This document shows, piece after piece, positions 4,894 through 12,725 of a DNA stretch of 15,471 nucleotides. The DNA lies in contig JAHFAK010000049.1 in assembly GCA_023250585.1 (NCBI GenBank), positions 1-15,471 of the forward strand, in the 5' to 3' direction. The notes beneath the pieces were generated by a model. That model was not told the DNA's origin and did no database searches. It saw nothing but the letters and a program-made list of their open reading frames with translations. This stretch comes from Deltaproteobacteria bacterium. GTDB taxonomy: Bacteria > Bdellovibrionota_F > JAHFAK01. Each line of letters opens with the position of its first letter. The stretch's first letter is position 1. The translations under genes and the position numbers were made by a program.

Positions 4894-5780
4894 GCCAAAA
4901 AAAAATTAAGGGAGTATATACCGCAATAGTCACACCATTTAATGATGATCTTTCGATTGATTACAAAAGTTTTTATACTCTTCTCGATAAACAAATTGAA
5001 GGTAAAATTGATGGAGTTCTCATTGGTGGAACTACGGGCGAAAAACCAACATTGACTGAGCATGAATTTCAAGAGCTGGTAGAAAAGTCCGTAGCTCATA
5101 TAAAAAAACGTGTAAAAGTTATGGTTGGCACGGGGACAAATTCAACGGATAAATCAGTTAAAGAAACAAAGCTCGCGGCTGATTTAGGTGCTGACTTCGC
5201 ACTTGTCGTTGGACCATATTACAATAAACCCATGGATGCGGGCTATATCGAGCATTTTACCAAAATTGCCGATGCATCAAAAATTCCAATTTGTCTCTAC
5301 AATATTCCTGGCCGAACAGGGAGCAATATGAAACCAAGTGTAGTGCTCGAACTTGCGAAACATAAAAATATTATTGCAATCAAAGAAGCGACAGGAAGTA
5401 TTGATCAAGCACAACAAATTATTAAAAAAGCTCCCAAGCATTTTTCGCTTCTTTCTGGCGATGATGAACTTACTTTACCTCTTATGGCATTGGGCGGAGA
5501 TGGCGTCATTTCAGTTGCGGGAAATCAAATTCCTCAAGAAATGAAAGCATTGGTGTATTGTCTCGAGAATCAAAAATATCAAGCAGCACAAGAAATCCAC
5601 TATAAATTTCTTGATCTCTTTAAAATTAACTTTATTGAAACAAATCCCATTCCTATTAAAACAGCATTGCACATGATGGGGCTCATCAAAAATGAAAATT
5701 TTCGACTTCCTCTTTGTCGAATGACTCCAGAAAATAAAGCCAAGCTAAAAACTTGTTTAGAGAAGTATGAATTGATTTAG
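4890..5780 (+). CDS. dapA: 4-hydroxy-tetrahydrodipicolinate synthase
   Basis: DapA condenses pyruvate with aspartate semialdehyde in the first committed step of the diaminopimelate branch. The 296-residue TIM-barrel has family-typical length and the key residues: GGTTGEKPTL with T48/T49, Y137 in LYNIPGRTG, and the Schiff-base lysine K165 in AIKEATGS. The start is supported by GGAGGG at 4879-4884, 5 nt before the ATG, and by the ATGA overlap with dapB. Enzymes of the same fold (N-acetylneuraminate lyase, other aldolases) are less likely given the dapB neighbour and the intact DapA motif set. The last 51 bp recur downstream at 7942-7992, suggesting that the 3' end was once an integration or recombination point. 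The gene is followed by a 126-bp palindromic element. Confidence 0.95.
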   Translation: MSQKKIKGVYTAIVTPFNDDLSIDYKSFYTLLDKQIEGKIDGVLIGGTTGEKPTLTEHEFQELVEKSVAHIKKRVKVMVGTGTNSTDKSVKETKLAADLGADFALVVGPYYNKPMDAGYIEHFTKIADASKIPICLYNIPGRTGSNMKPSVVLELAKHKNIIAIKEATGSIDQAQQIIKKAPKHFSLLSGDDELTLPLMALGGDGVISVAGNQIPQEMKALVYCLENQKYQAAQEIHYKFLDLFKINFIETNPIPIKTALHMMGLIKNENFRLPLCRMTPENKAKLKTCLEKYELI

Positions 5781-5797
5781 AATCGAAGGAGAAGGAC

Positions 5798-5923
5798 TAT
5801 ACACGACGCCATAACTTCGCATACCTTCGTTACTCCTTGTCTCGTCACTGCGGCGTACAAGCTCGTACGCCTCGCTCCTTGACTTCGTCGTGCCTTGGTC
5901 TGCTCGTTCTTGCGTCGTGTATA
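5798..5923. repeat. 126-bp inverted-repeat element, intergenic copy
   Basis: A GC-richer element bounded by perfect 12-bp inverted repeats, tatacacgacgc (5798-5809) and gcgtcgtgtata (5912-5923). A central hairpin ggcgtac/gtacgcc (5852-5858 with 5865-5871) has a 6-nt loop. It matches the copy at 10565-10690 over its full length in the same orientation, with 11 mismatches that I counted (about 91% identity). Four of those mismatches fall in the hairpin loop and none in its stem. Its minus strand is free of stop codons in the frame used by the other copy. It lies between the converging dapA and fic genes, where its stem could act as a bidirectional terminator. No target-site duplication is obvious. 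Confidence 0.9.
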
Positions 5924-5936
5924 CGCAATTATTTAT

Positions 5937-5949
5937 GTCGTTGTGTATA
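5937..5949. repeat. Possible truncated end of a second 126-bp element
   Basis: The 13 bases gtcgttgtgtata, just after the intergenic element and touching the fic stop codon, match the right end of the intragenic copy (gcgttgtgtata). The following gttatt also occurs shortly after that copy's end. This may be the remains of an older insertion, but the match is short. Confidence 0.35.
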
Positions 5950-7935: not shown

Positions 7936-7992
7936 ATGAAAGAAAATAAATCAAAGCTCAGAGCTTGTTTGAAACGATACGAATTGATTTAG
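7936..7992 (+). pseudogene. Remnant of a dapA 3' end
   Basis: Bases 7942-7992 align without gaps to the last 51 bp of dapA (5730-5780), with 39 identical positions, including the identical final gaattgatttag. Translated in frame it ends ENKSKLRACLKRYELI, against ENKAKLKTCLEKYELI for DapA. The differences are mostly synonymous or conservative (A/S, K/R, T/A), so the fragment diverged while coding. An in-frame stop at 7894-7896 shows that no complete gene remains. The minus-strand ATPase stop codon (7989-7991) lies inside the fragment. It is either the displaced 3' end of an older dapA after integration, or the trace of a lost second dapA. Confidence 0.75.
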
Positions 7993-9173
7993 GATTTCAA
8001 AATTTCGTTATTCCATAATTGAGTTACAAAACGTTTCCAATGCATACATTCAATTCCATCTTCGGTTTTTCGATGAGTCTCATCACGTGAGACAACAATA
8101 GATCGTTTGACGTTATATTCATCACGTAATGCAGTAATTCCTTTGAGATGATCTGTTTTCAACGAATTTGTTGATTTGAACTCAAGTGCAACATCCATAT
8201 CGCCAAGAATAAGATCTACTTCAAAACCAGAGCTTGTTCTCCAAAAGGCAAGAGGGAGGTCGCTATCATTATACGAAAGATATGCTTTGATTTCATTGAT
8301 TAAAAAATGCTCAAAGATGTTGCCGTAGCTATCGGTTCCTGGAATTGTTTCTTGTACCGGAGGCATAAGATAGCGTGCAACTCCAACATCGAACATATAA
8401 AACTTTGCTGTTTCAATTAAGCGCCGGTTTTTTGCTTTGCGCCACGGCTCAAGTTCATAGCCTACCAGCGTATCTATGAGGATTTGATAATAATTTCGTA
8501 TCGTGGATGATGAAACGCCAACATCACGTGCAATGTTAGCATAGTTAATCAATGATCCATGAGTAAAACTTACTGACGCAAGAAAACGGGCAAAGGATGG
8601 GATGTTTCTCGTTAATGCTTCATCAATAATTTCTTCTTTAATATAATTATTAAGATACGCTTTCATGAGCTTTTTAGGATTTTTGCTCAAATAATGAATC
8701 GGCAAGCACCCGCAAGACAAAGCTCGATCTAAATCAAAATTTTTTAATTCATGGGTAACAAGTGGAAATAAAAAATATTCAATTGCTCTGCCCCCCAATA
8801 AATTGTGCGCCTGTCTTTTTAACTTTCGCGCACTTGATCCGCAGAGGATTATTTTTTTATTCGTATTTTCAAGAAGCCAATGGACTTCATCTAAAAGCTC
8901 AGGAACTTTTTGAATTTCATCAATGACAATGACTTTATTTCTTTCGTTTGCAAGGATTTTCTCTCTCAAAAGTTTCGGCCGCAGGGTAAGATCAGTTGCC
9001 AAATCAGAATCCAGTAAATCAAAAGAAAGAGCATTGGGAAATTGTTGCCCTAAAAGCGTTGTTTTTCCTGTTTGTCGTGGCCCCCAGAGAAAAACCGCAC
9101 CTGATTTTTTAATTGGATTTTCTGGAAGCTCTATTTTAAGTATTCTTTTTATTTCTGATAATCGTTGATTCAT
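7989..9173 (-). CDS. AAA-family ATPase with DUF4143 domain
   Basis: A 394-residue protein of the widespread AAA_14/DUF4143 family, of uncertain biological role. Visible features are a Walker A motif GPRQTGKTT (31-39), a Walker B motif VIVIDEIQ (81-88) and a sensor-like IILCGSSARKLKR (108-120). GGRAIEYFLFPL (127-138) follows. A helix-turn-helix-like stretch VGVSSSTIRNYYQILIDT is at 218-235. The C-terminal DUF4143 part has FEVD (317-320) and EFKS (331-334), giving a PD-(D/E)xK nuclease-like pattern (D320, E331, K333). Length and motifs are complete, so it is probably functional. These genes are often duplicated and mobile in host-associated bacteria and archaea. It has its own strong promoter and appears leaderless. 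Its last codons overlap the dapA remnant, showing that it was juxtaposed by rearrangement. Confidence 0.9.
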   Translation of the reverse strand: MNQRLSEIKRILKIELPENPIKKSGAVFLWGPRQTGKTTLLGQQFPNALSFDLLDSDLATDLTLRPKLLREKILANERNKVIVIDEIQKVPELLDEVHWLLENTNKKIILCGSSARKLKRQAHNLLGGRAIEYFLFPLVTHELKNFDLDRALSCGCLPIHYLSKNPKKLMKAYLNNYIKEEIIDEALTRNIPSFARFLASVSFTHGSLINYANIARDVGVSSSTIRNYYQILIDTLVGYELEPWRKAKNRRLIETAKFYMFDVGVARYLMPPVQETIPGTDSYGNIFEHFLINEIKAYLSYNDSDLPLAFWRTSSGFEVDLILGDMDVALEFKSTNSLKTDHLKGITALRDEYNVKRSIVVSRDETHRKTEDGIECMHWKRFVTQLWNNEILKS

Positions 9174-9221: not shown

Positions 9222-12200
9222 TCAAAACCCGCTTCCGAGGCCAGCATAAATTCTTACTGGATATTCATCATTGAAACCATATTTTTTTTGGTTTTGGAAG
9301 CCATATGCAACGGTAAAGAAACTAAACCAGGGCGTATAGTGAAATATGAATGATTTCATTCGAAGTTCGAAGCCCGCATCGTAGAGAAGCAGTGGGCCTT
9401 TTGCTCGTACCTGTTGAGAAGTAGATGCATCAAATGTTTGAGCCGAATTATCAAATTCTCCATGATCCCAGGCATTTCCTGCATGGGCGAAGATTGTTCC
9501 ATAAATGTCGTCGAGATAAAAAAATGAATGTGAATATTTTAAATCAGTTGCAAGGGGAAAATTATAGTTAAGCTCGCCTAATACTCGTGTCTCTCCAATA
9601 ATTGAGTATCCATCGTAACCAGGGAATGAAAGCGTGGTATTAATATCTCTGAATGTTTTAAATATTGATTTGCCGCCAAGATAGAGTTCGTCGGAAGGAT
9701 CAACATTTTTGTCGATAAAACTTCCGTCAAAACTAAATCCAAATGTATGTTCTTGATGATTTTTTAATGCATATTTATAATCAATATCAACTCTCACCGT
9801 GTGAAAGAAATAGTCGGTGCGCGGATCCGCGGGATCAAATTTTCCCCACAAAAGACCCATGCTTTGAATATCGTTATTTAAATCGGTGTACGTAAAAACA
9901 TAATCAAATTTCATTTCGAGTCCCCGAGGGCTAATGTCGTGATCTTTTCTTTTTTCATCATCAATATCTTTATAATGAAACGTAAAATTTGCGCTGTTAT
10001 TCCTCAGAAGTTTAAAGCTTTTGATGTCGCCCGTTCCATCTCCATTGGTATCTGCGCCCAAGAAAGCAACTCCTGAATGCAGCGCTAAATCACGGAAATT
10101 GTATTCCAGCGAGAGAGAATGATCTCCCAATGGCATGGTTGCACCGGCTTTGACAATATCCTGTTTATATTCAGCATAATAATCTGGATTTGTTGTTAAT
10201 CCTGATTGATCAAGAAATGCTTGCGTATAAATGTTGCTGACATAAATTCTATTAATTGCTTGTGCAGCCGAGAGATTAAATTCGGGGTACCACATATTAT
10301 TGGTATATTCAGCAAGATAATTTTCGTCTTCATCATAGAAAAATCGCGCACGAAGCGAATGACGAGAAAGATAATCTTCTATTGTAAATGTTAACCCAAA
10401 ACCAACTTGGCTATTAAAAATAATCATTTCAGGAACAAGTTGTAATGGAATAAAGTTTTTCCATTTTGGAATCGAAAGAAAATCCGTTGCATTGTATGGC
10501 TCGTATTCAATGGCAGGATATTCAAGTTCTTCTTTTAAATATGCTTTTAATCCTTTTTCATCGATATACACGACGTCATAACTTCGCATACCTTCGTTAC
10601 TCCTTGTCTCGTCACTGCGGCGTACTGTTTCGTACGCCTCGCGCCTCGACTTCGTCGTGCCTCGGTCTTCTCGTTCTGGCGTTGTGTATATATTGTTATT
10701 CAGGAAGTCCTTTGTTTCGATTTTAAAAAGTTTAAATCCGTAGCTTGTGAAATATGAGTAGAAAATTGTTTCATCGTAGCTATTAAAGTAAGGCATAAAA
10801 GCCCCACCGAGAACATTCGTTACTTGTTGAATTTTTCGAGATGTCAGATTTATTTCGTAAATATTAAAAATGCCGGTGCGGTCGGTTACAAAAAATATTG
10901 TATCTTTTGTCGCCCAATATGGGTCACGATTTTCGTAATCATCAAAAGTCAGCGGCATGAGATTTGTGCCCTTCACATCAATCGTCCAAATATTTTGTTT
11001 ATCTTTTCTAAAGAGAGAAAATACCAGACGAGTATCATCTGGACTCCACGAAGGCGCATTTACTTGTGTATCATCATCATACTCAATGAGATATTTAATT
11101 GAATTATTATTGCGTAGATCCAGTATTCCTAAATGTTTTTTCCCATCATTATTACGGATAAAAGCAATCTTTGTGCCGTCGTGTGACCATGCGACTTCTT
11201 CAGCTCGTAGATGCTCTGTCACATAAGTGAATTCTCCATCTTTATAAAAAAGATGTTTCCAAAATTTTTTCTTTTGTTTCATGTCATATGTAAAATCACG
11301 ATACGTTCGAGCTTTTACTTCTTCTTTAAAACGATCGATAAGTTCGTGTAAATCAATTATAACGAGATCATTATACGAGAATCCTTGCAGATGTTTTTTT
11401 GTTCCCTTTTTTACTTTTGAAAGAACAATTTTAGAACTATCTGGCGACCAATCATACGAAGTTACTCCTGTTAAACTTGCTTCGACTTTAAAATAGGTTC
11501 CATCTTCCTTAGGAAATTCTTTATAATTGCGAATAATGAGTTTTTTCGTTCCGCCATAATCAAATTCAAGATATGAGAGCCATAAGCCATCCGGAGAAAT
11601 CTTTGGATAAATGCGATAGTCGGGTATGTTTTGCTTTTCTGCTTTTTCGGCTTTTGACAATCGTTTAATGATAACAGTTTGGTTGTCAGCGAGGGCATAT
11701 GTCGCATCGCCAACTTTTTCTTTAGACTTTTTTTCTTTCTCTTCAAATTTTATTTCTTGCCCCTCTTTTCTCTCTTTTGAAATTTGATTAGCAAAGGCAA
11801 GATATTTTTCTTCATTCGTATTTTTCCATTCATCAAAAGTATCTTCAAATTTTTCACCCGATGCTTCTTCGATAAAAGGAATCATAGTCATGTTTGGTTT
11901 ATAGGCTTTTTCGGCAACTAGTTTATCGATTTTGACATGAATGTCGGTGCCAAATTTTTCACCCATAAATTTTGTTAACGAAAAACCCATACAATATCCA
12001 AGCTCGCCATAGAATTTTTTGAGAGCTTGAGGAGTCGCCATTTCATTGGGATCAAGTACGGTATCTTCCAGAAAAGCCATGCGCAAAAACATTTCTCGAT
12101 GGCTATCGAAAGAGTCTCTCTTGAATTCGCTGGTATCGTATTGAGCGATACCTTCTACCCACCAATATGGTGTCGTCCAGCCATCGAGGCGAAATATGCC

Positions 12201-12725
12201 AAAAATTTCGTAATCCGGAAGTTTTGTGTCGAGGTAAGGCAAGCTGTTTCGATCTTGTAACGTAAATGGTGAAAAACCAAAGGTCGCAACGCGATCACCA
12301 AAAATACTTCCAGCTTTGCCACCAACGATATGAGCAAATTCATGAGTTAACACGTTTTTGATCCAATCACTGCGACCACGTAAATTAAAAGTATTGGTAT
12401 ATAAATTTGTTGGTTCGATCATAATGAGATCATACGAATAAAGCGCAAAGCCATTTGACCCATCTCGGGAATCTGAAATGACAATATGAATTTTTCTGTT
12501 TAAAGGATAATCGTATCTTGTCGTTACTTTGGTATAGGTGTCATCAGCTATTTTTGCAATCTTTCGCGCCGTAAATTCTGTTGAGCGATTAAAATGAATA
12601 AAGAAGTGTTCAGTTTCGATTGTGTACCAGGTGTAACCAAGTTGTTTGTTGATAAGGGTATCGGCAAAAGAAAGTGGTGACACAAAGAGAGCAAAAATAA
12701 ATATGGCATAAAAGATTTTTTTCAT
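9222..12725 (-). CDS. Secreted peptidase-like / TolB-propeller / outer-membrane barrel protein
   Basis: A 1167-residue envelope protein. It has a signal peptide (1-21, cleavage likely after SFA) and a peptidase-MA-like domain with zinc motif HEFAH at 128-132 and a probable third ligand E191 in WWVEGIAQY. A lysine/glutamate-rich linker (about 315-350) precedes a TolB/PD40 beta-propeller (about 365-675, repeats such as WSHDGTKIAF and WSPDDTRLVF). The C-terminal part (about 750-1167) has alternating aromatic strands and a final F, as in outer-membrane barrels. The catalytic residues look intact, so a periplasmic or surface protease anchored by its own barrel is plausible. Residues 679-721 are encoded by an inserted 126-bp repeat. 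The start lies 3 nt after the upstream stop with no ribosome site, implying coupling. The substrate is unknown. Confidence 0.85.
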   Translation of the reverse strand: MKKIFYAIFIFALFVSPLSFADTLINKQLGYTWYTIETEHFFIHFNRSTEFTARKIAKIADDTYTKVTTRYDYPLNRKIHIVISDSRDGSNGFALYSYDLIMIEPTNLYTNTFNLRGRSDWIKNVLTHEFAHIVGGKAGSIFGDRVATFGFSPFTLQDRNSLPYLDTKLPDYEIFGIFRLDGWTTPYWWVEGIAQYDTSEFKRDSFDSHREMFLRMAFLEDTVLDPNEMATPQALKKFYGELGYCMGFSLTKFMGEKFGTDIHVKIDKLVAEKAYKPNMTMIPFIEEASGEKFEDTFDEWKNTNEEKYLAFANQISKERKEGQEIKFEEKEKKSKEKVGDATYALADNQTVIIKRLSKAEKAEKQNIPDYRIYPKISPDGLWLSYLEFDYGGTKKLIIRNYKEFPKEDGTYFKVEASLTGVTSYDWSPDSSKIVLSKVKKGTKKHLQGFSYNDLVIIDLHELIDRFKEEVKARTYRDFTYDMKQKKKFWKHLFYKDGEFTYVTEHLRAEEVAWSHDGTKIAFIRNNDGKKHLGILDLRNNNSIKYLIEYDDDTQVNAPSWSPDDTRLVFSLFRKDKQNIWTIDVKGTNLMPLTFDDYENRDPYWATKDTIFFVTDRTGIFNIYEINLTSRKIQQVTNVLGGAFMPYFNSYDETIFYSYFTSYGFKLFKIETKDFLNNNIYTTPEREDRGTTKSRREAYETVRRSDETRSNEGMRSYDVVYIDEKGLKAYLKEELEYPAIEYEPYNATDFLSIPKWKNFIPLQLVPEMIIFNSQVGFGLTFTIEDYLSRHSLRARFFYDEDENYLAEYTNNMWYPEFNLSAAQAINRIYVSNIYTQAFLDQSGLTTNPDYYAEYKQDIVKAGATMPLGDHSLSLEYNFRDLALHSGVAFLGADTNGDGTGDIKSFKLLRNNSANFTFHYKDIDDEKRKDHDISPRGLEMKFDYVFTYTDLNNDIQSMGLLWGKFDPADPRTDYFFHTVRVDIDYKYALKNHQEHTFGFSFDGSFIDKNVDPSDELYLGGKSIFKTFRDINTTLSFPGYDGYSIIGETRVLGELNYNFPLATDLKYSHSFFYLDDIYGTIFAHAGNAWDHGEFDNSAQTFDASTSQQVRAKGPLLLYDAGFELRMKSFIFHYTPWFSFFTVAYGFQNQKKYGFNDEYPVRIYAGLGSGF
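10565..10690. repeat. 126-bp inverted-repeat element inserted in frame in a gene
   Basis: Same length and orientation as the copy at 5798-5923, with 115 of 126 positions identical. The end repeats are slightly decayed (tatacacgacgtc against ggcgttgtgtata), while the central stem ggcgtac/gtacgcc (10619-10625 with 10632-10638) is unchanged. Because 126 is divisible by three and the minus strand has no stop in this frame, it adds about 42 hydrophilic, Arg/Glu/Ser/Thr-rich residues (YTTPEREDRGTTKSRREAYE and onward) to the envelope protein without breaking it. It lies between the propeller and the barrel, where extra length is probably tolerated. Confidence 0.93.

Follow-up and report, generated by a model that had tools for sequence, protein, structure and literature searches.

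In-frame invasion of genes by palindromic repeats is best known in the intracellular Rickettsiales. The palindromic elements of Rickettsia (RPE; Ogata et al. 2000 and 2002), for which we rely on PMC10969869 and PMC2229807, measure 105-146 bp, and their target duplication is listed as unknown (PMC2229807). ERIC/RU-1 of enterobacteria is 127 bp long and is compared below together with the enterobacterial YPAL/RU-2 (PMC2759123, PMC2229807). The RUP of Streptococcus pneumoniae is a 107-bp MITE with a TA target that is attributed to IS630-Spn1; the listing gives it as intergenic, with no open reading frame (PMC2229807). Some copies of the palindromic MITEs QMITE1 and QMITE2 of Coxiella burnetii lie in frame in open reading frames or add C-terminal residues (PMC5896051).

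Here, we analyzed a 15,471-nucleotide stretch of DNA (the window) on contig JAHFAK010000049.1 of a Deltaproteobacteria MAG (2.24 Mb in 164 contigs, 96.66% complete, 1.13% contaminated), whose phylum is represented by two genomes in our comparison set, with no close relative among them. Its open reading frame at 9222-12725 on the minus strand contains a 126-bp imperfect palindrome, which an earlier note on this DNA had taken for a full-length copy of an intergenic repeat inside an open gene, with a length divisible by three and a stop-free frame. This description held in each of its points: the unit at 10565-10690 is about 91% identical to an intergenic copy at 5798-5923, lies wholly within the host frame and is open in that frame as residues 679-721. 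The features of the window are as follows.

9222..12725, minus strand: host gene, encoding a 1167-aa predicted secreted protein with a TolB-like beta-propeller (PD40), then a C-terminal beta-barrel
10565..10690: in-gene copy of the 126-bp imperfect palindromic element, read in frame on the minus strand of the host protein as residues 679-721 (YTTPEREDRGTTKSRREAYETVRRSDETRSNEGMRSYDVVY)
10565..10581, plus strand: left terminal inverted repeat TATACACGACGTCATAA, from pattern search
10674..10690, minus strand: right terminal inverted repeat TATACACAACGCCAGAA, from pattern search
10619..10638: apical hairpin GGCGTAC / GTACGCC
5798..5923: second 126-bp copy, intergenic, between dapA and a Fic gene
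5924..5949: tail of the intergenic copy, 26-27 bp, with a third terminal repeat (TTATGTCGTTGTGTATA)

Near the intergenic copy, the dapA 3' end is repeated over 55 nt (76%; 7941-7995 versus 5729-5783, coding ENKSKLRACLKRYELI-stop) after the Fic gene and a membrane gene of no known function, and what lies between the two dapA ends may have been inserted.

Ends, copies and distribution of the element

The 126-bp unit at 10565-10690 has matching ends (start TATACACGACG, end CGTTGTGTATA) and carries terminal inverted repeats of 17 bp, TATACACRACGNCATAA, at both of them. The terminal-repeat pattern (at most 2 mismatches) was found at 49 sites, compared with 5 for the reversed control; the version of the element in the delta genome has TACASAGCGTCATAA in this place, and the degenerate form of the ends is TACA(C/G)(A/G)(A/G)CGNCATAA. 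On many copies, a third terminal sequence (CGCAATTATTTATGTCGTTGTGTATA) closes an extra tail of 26-27 bp, giving a unit of about 152 bp; the intergenic copy of the window has this tail (to about 5949), whereas the in-gene copy lacks it and measures 126 bp only. Copies fold as a single long imperfect hairpin with the apical stem GGCGTAY/RTACGCC, and in this genome up to three of the element's six frames are open.

The earlier note had proposed searching the genome for further copies, and these were abundant. BLAST against its own genome gave 40 matches at E<=1 (best non-self 2.3e-47), which reduce to about 28 distinct copies when the halves that nested insertions or contig ends separate are counted as one, a repeat nature far beyond chance. 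Most copies are intergenic and lie in both orientations at unrelated places, some with nested insertions. More were found in other genomes: relatives 77-80% identical occur in MAGs with the NCBI labels Deltaproteobacteria and Nitrospinota, the element is present in 40 of the 63 genomes of one other class, and an exact core pattern, a scan that could miss distant relatives of the element, was found across 84,980 genomes on 11 contigs, all of them from MAGs with these same two labels, with up to 50 element matches in a single genome among the positive MAGs. The search of relatives found no copy in the class-mate genome and a match in one of 57 more distant ones, of 24 nt only. No match was obtained in the viral contigs, plasmids and phages searched, nor, as a test of homology to ERIC, in 5,426 E. 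coli genomes queried with a 156-bp copy (L038) at E<=1e-3; no Rfam family matched the window, and no published description was found in the open literature searched. On the strength of these negatives, the family is undescribed as far as the libraries searched show. The earlier suggestion of an undescribed family of this lineage thus stands in its first part and not in its second, as the element is also frequent among other uncultured MAGs labelled "Deltaproteobacteria" or Nitrospinota.

Some copies are themselves modified. A second palindrome of about 108 bp, TCCTACTACGCTCC...GGAACGAAGCAGGA, flanked by the 8-bp repeat TC(A/G)(C/T)TGCG, is nested near the apex of four copies (L024, L025, L030 and L021; shorter in L021) and represents another MITE-like family, for which the main element offers a preferred target. 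At L236 302-575, an open reading frame encodes a peptide of the ARNDRRPHVVIASMVPHLSLRGG kind, whose appearance suggests that it stems from yet another repeated palindrome. Three copies in genome G065 (L140, L143 and L083) show two 1-nt deletions at opposed arm positions relative to the common 128-bp core, which shortens the core to 126 bp and makes the net length a multiple of three.

Target site, symmetry and mobilization

We consider it very probable that the element is a non-autonomous MITE that measures about 126 or 152 bp, ends in 17-bp terminal inverted repeats, is palindromic from arm to arm, inserts at TA and is read through in genes. The observed parts of this reading are the number of copies and where they occur, their in-frame reading, the lack of the segment in homologues, co-variation of the arms, TA bias and one clean empty site; as in other MITEs, the element is short, without a transposase, present in high copy (about 28) and mobile, with both filled and empty sites. 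A junction in the his operon is filled in G060 and empty in G059. The only site clean to the base is ATTT[TATGCAG...TGTGTATA]GAATCC on G065:C53 versus the empty ATTT-TG-GAAGCC on G061:C3, where two bases are kept, which supports a 2-bp, TA-like target duplication. Across 98 mapped insertion sites, 55% read Y-TA-R, compared with 17.5% of nearby TA sites. Insertion occurs at TA with a preference for Y-TA-R, and a duplication of TA is supported, though not every in-gene copy fits it.

Excision under TA duplication yields MKKKYSIILLLFSLPQFVGAV and MKLNNINLIKFDERG, the latter leaving a HisIE of the same length as its relative in G347 (MKLHFNINIKFDEKG). With this duplication, the net insert is 150 bp, and in frame, for an open reading frame on contig C152, HisIE and an AddB-like gene, 155 and 152 bp for two leaders and 124 bp for a third. 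The window copy, from its length of 126 bp, likewise nets 124 where the frame needs 126 or 123. The three leaders and the window copy are therefore off-frame under TA duplication and require other ends or later small indels at the junctions; our guess is that the tail-less window copy is a 150-bp insertion minus 24 or 27 bp. The duplication that restores the frame is TA for L131, L140 and L143, the 4-bp TATA for L011 and L015, and 0 bp for L009, and a 4-bp TATA duplication was rejected as a general rule, since it fits the second set and fails the first. Preferential insertion into stop codons was also discarded (8 of 98 sites, p about 0.06 against the 4.2% that Y-TA-R sites would give), as such insertions follow mostly from the Y-TA-R target preference.

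Such target behavior is that of TA-duplicating DDE elements (IS630/Tc1 class), among them RUP and IS630-Spn1 (PMC2229807). Mobilization of the MITE would take place in trans, through a TA-targeting (IS630/Tc1-like) DDE transposase that is presumably now lost or was not assembled. No DDE_3 transposase was found in seven other genomes searched. One IS630-like open reading frame in G000 was rejected as a parent, being single, shortened and without matching ends, and there was no facing pair of element ends at 1-3 kb, as a large TIR-bounded parent would show, among the matches listed. Alternatively, a RAYT (Y1) transposase might spread the element as a REP/BIME-like palindrome via single-stranded intermediates. 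The palindrome does contain a strong hairpin, and Y1_Tnp genes are present in five of six genomes searched, this one included. However, neither the element nor its ends were present at any of the 12 Y1_Tnp loci examined, of which several have different palindromes of their own; the units measure 126-152 bp versus the 20-40 bp of GTAG/CGTC-tagged REP palindromes; and TA duplication with a Y-TA-R bias better fits a DDE, TA-targeting transposase. Spread by RAYT is thus improbable.

It is slightly less probable still that the palindrome is kept as a functional element of its hosts, such as a terminator, an mRNA-stability element or a DNA-binding site, with the in-gene copies being incidental. Copies are mostly intergenic, one abuts an AdoCbl riboswitch-like match, many end the upstream open reading frame within a few codons, and the co-variation of the arms is strong. 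When 36 copies taken from several genomes are aligned, 94.9% of the paired cells are complementary, and double changes occur in 14 of 24 arm pairs (71 double-changed cells versus 20.6 when shuffled). The covariation score is 0.250 versus 0.115 when shuffled, a value reached in 0 of 500 shuffles, and pairing collapses when the pairs are slid by 1-3 columns. Yet, apart from the terminal column, G-U pairs hardly occur, so that we read the symmetry as one of DNA rather than of an RNA helix, and the scatter of the copies over unrelated places in both orientations, their nested insertions and the lack of an Rfam match in the window argue against a host function, which would in any case be compatible with mobility of the element.

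The copy next to the riboswitch-like match (L013 1374-1505) is flanked by ACGATCAA/TTGATCGT and lies directly 5' of the match, which scores 43.7 bits versus a gathering score of 50; a position inside the B12 riboswitch aptamer was rejected, the copy lying just 5' of the aptamer match. Among 147 copies, about 50 open reading frames (>=90 aa) end inside the element (e.g., L006, L021, L192 and L183), often at most 5 codons from its end (YRAS-stop, YTTP-stop), at in-frame stop codons in the element ends.

Proteins read through the element

In the host protein of the window, TolB-type propeller repeats were matched at residues about 512-673, and the protein or a homologue is present in 49 of the 290 genomes searched (the window's own counted). 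The linker that follows (residue equivalents 672 to 760) spans 88 residues, compared with 46 in the class-mate G001, which is the length that remains once the 42 inserted residues are removed, and 35-62 residues in 20 of 22 other aligned homologues; the two with longer linkers, L252 (110 residues) and L256 (83 residues), have unrelated sequence there. Excision of the insert raises the local alignment score against G001 from 892 to 920. In a structural model of residues 480-1167 (mean pLDDT 66, usable for coarse layout only), the insert (pLDDT 29-41) falls within a stretch of pLDDT <50 between propeller and barrel, and the element is thus predicted to sit in a disordered linker. Both the position between the two domains and the lack of the 42 residues in orthologues, which the earlier note had raised, are borne out. 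That these residues have instead belonged to the envelope protein since ancient times, with the repeat deriving from its gene, is hardly tenable: the smooth in-frame reading and the conservation of the protein on both sides would suit it, but the segment is absent from homologues of many families, the long linkers of L252 and L256 are unrelated, and the same DNA recurs in unrelated genes, intergenic sites and distant genomes.

Read-through by an inserted MITE, the explanation that we prefer, is also seen elsewhere in the genome, with about seven in-frame genic copies: the window linker, four apparent signal peptides (recognized by eye, without a predictor), the N-terminus of a PurE-like protein and, probably, plsB. 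The frames run unbroken through these copies, on C152 as MKKKYS[50 aa]IILLLFSLPQFVGAV, with AAGGA upstream. Two leaders on C148, the second of a TPR protein, read MKKII[..]ALFFVTTSAILAETK and MSATIT[..]GALYILLFCLLSTTLFA, and a lipoprotein-like leader on C43, of a protein with a PEGA domain, reads MNFMKHIILFCI[..]VLILVGCAKR. On C96, the matched domain of the PurE-like protein (AIRC, 3.3e-21) starts right after the insert. The plsB halves, one at an end of contig C72 and one at an end of C40, match parts of the PlsB profile that follow on one another, suggesting one gene split at the element. In other genomes, in-frame copies are carried by HisIE and an AddB-like PD-(D/E)XK nuclease gene (both G065) and by MtaB of G063 (profile 1.6e-127), there in the linker that joins its UPF0004 domain to its radical-SAM domain. 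The parallel drawn earlier with Rickettsia palindromic elements is therefore apt in that other copies run in frame through unrelated genes. As for the label "protein-invading", it suits these genic copies, about a quarter of all copies here and 3 of about 120 examined elsewhere, but most copies are intergenic. A clear mid-gene break of a conserved gene by a copy was not found, in an excision test that was noisy, and a simulation of frame retention in intergenic copies, on 7 copies only, was uninformative. Open reading frames through elements such as L032/L088, L229 and L033 were not counted, as they look like chance frames upstream of real starts.

A polar frame ending in GMRSYDxxY or similar is used in the window linker, MtaB, the AddB-like gene, HisIE, the PurE-like protein and C152, and the remaining three leaders use other frames, which end in hydrophobic residues. 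Four apparent signal peptides out of about seven genic copies correspond to a binomial tail of about 3e-7 to 2e-4, under our assumption that signal peptides make up 1-5% of coding sequence, and this excess is likely due to survivorship. We propose that the MITE would insert at TA, preferably Y-TA-R, and that, since up to three of its six frames are open, a landing in a gene could be read through as a peptide of 42-50 aa. Surviving landings would be those in tolerant places, namely, disordered inter-domain linkers, N-termini and, within signal peptides, the n-region or the beginning of the h-region, and the fusions would be translated and probably persist through purifying selection rather than benefit. 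It is tempting to speculate, as a tentative extension, that the copies represent a family of protein-invading palindromes that has a defined mechanism of TA targeting, occurs in several classes or phyla and yields peptides that depend on the frame. Conceivably, the polar peptide enters linkers and N-termini, peptides with a hydrophobic end enter signal peptides, and net-150-bp subfamilies with paired 1-nt deletions on opposite arms have been shaped for in-frame tolerance.

Comparison with known systems

With its defined ends, TA target, kept symmetry and filled and empty sites in related genomes, the element makes peptide invasion testable and raises the questions of whether ordinary MITE transposition together with selection is how such peptides enter proteins, and of which regions of a protein tolerate them. 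It resembles RUP as a MITE with a TA target, but IS630-Spn1 is known for RUP, whereas no IS with matching ends was found here. QMITE1 and QMITE2, palindromic MITEs with some in-frame copies, are a partial precedent, as is RU-2; they differ in sequence, host and target, and read-through of conserved housekeeping genes is seen here. With ERIC and YPAL, the element shares TA at the termini, target duplication and in-frame fusions, and with ERIC also a near-identical unit length, although its terminal inverted repeats are longer (17 versus 7 bp), and it appears to insert within existing signal peptides rather than to create a new leader. RPE are similar in size, in being palindromes with terminal inverted repeats, in forming several families and in inserting in frame into unrelated genes, which here include the conserved genes for the window protein, the PurE-like protein, MtaB, the AddB-like protein and HisIE and the plsB halves. 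They differ in host lineage, the exact core pattern having been found in Deltaproteobacteria and Nitrospinota MAGs only and not in Rickettsia, and no sequence relation is seen. Moreover, the element has a definable TA target and a 17-bp TIR, its copies are mostly intergenic, and no account was found of RPE inserting in signal peptides, as this element apparently does. The sequence comparisons that could be made with the known systems were negative. We read the element as working in an RPE- and ERIC-like way while belonging to neither by its sequence, and we file it as a new family of protein-invading palindromic MITEs, closest to RPE in behavior and to ERIC and RUP in size and ends.
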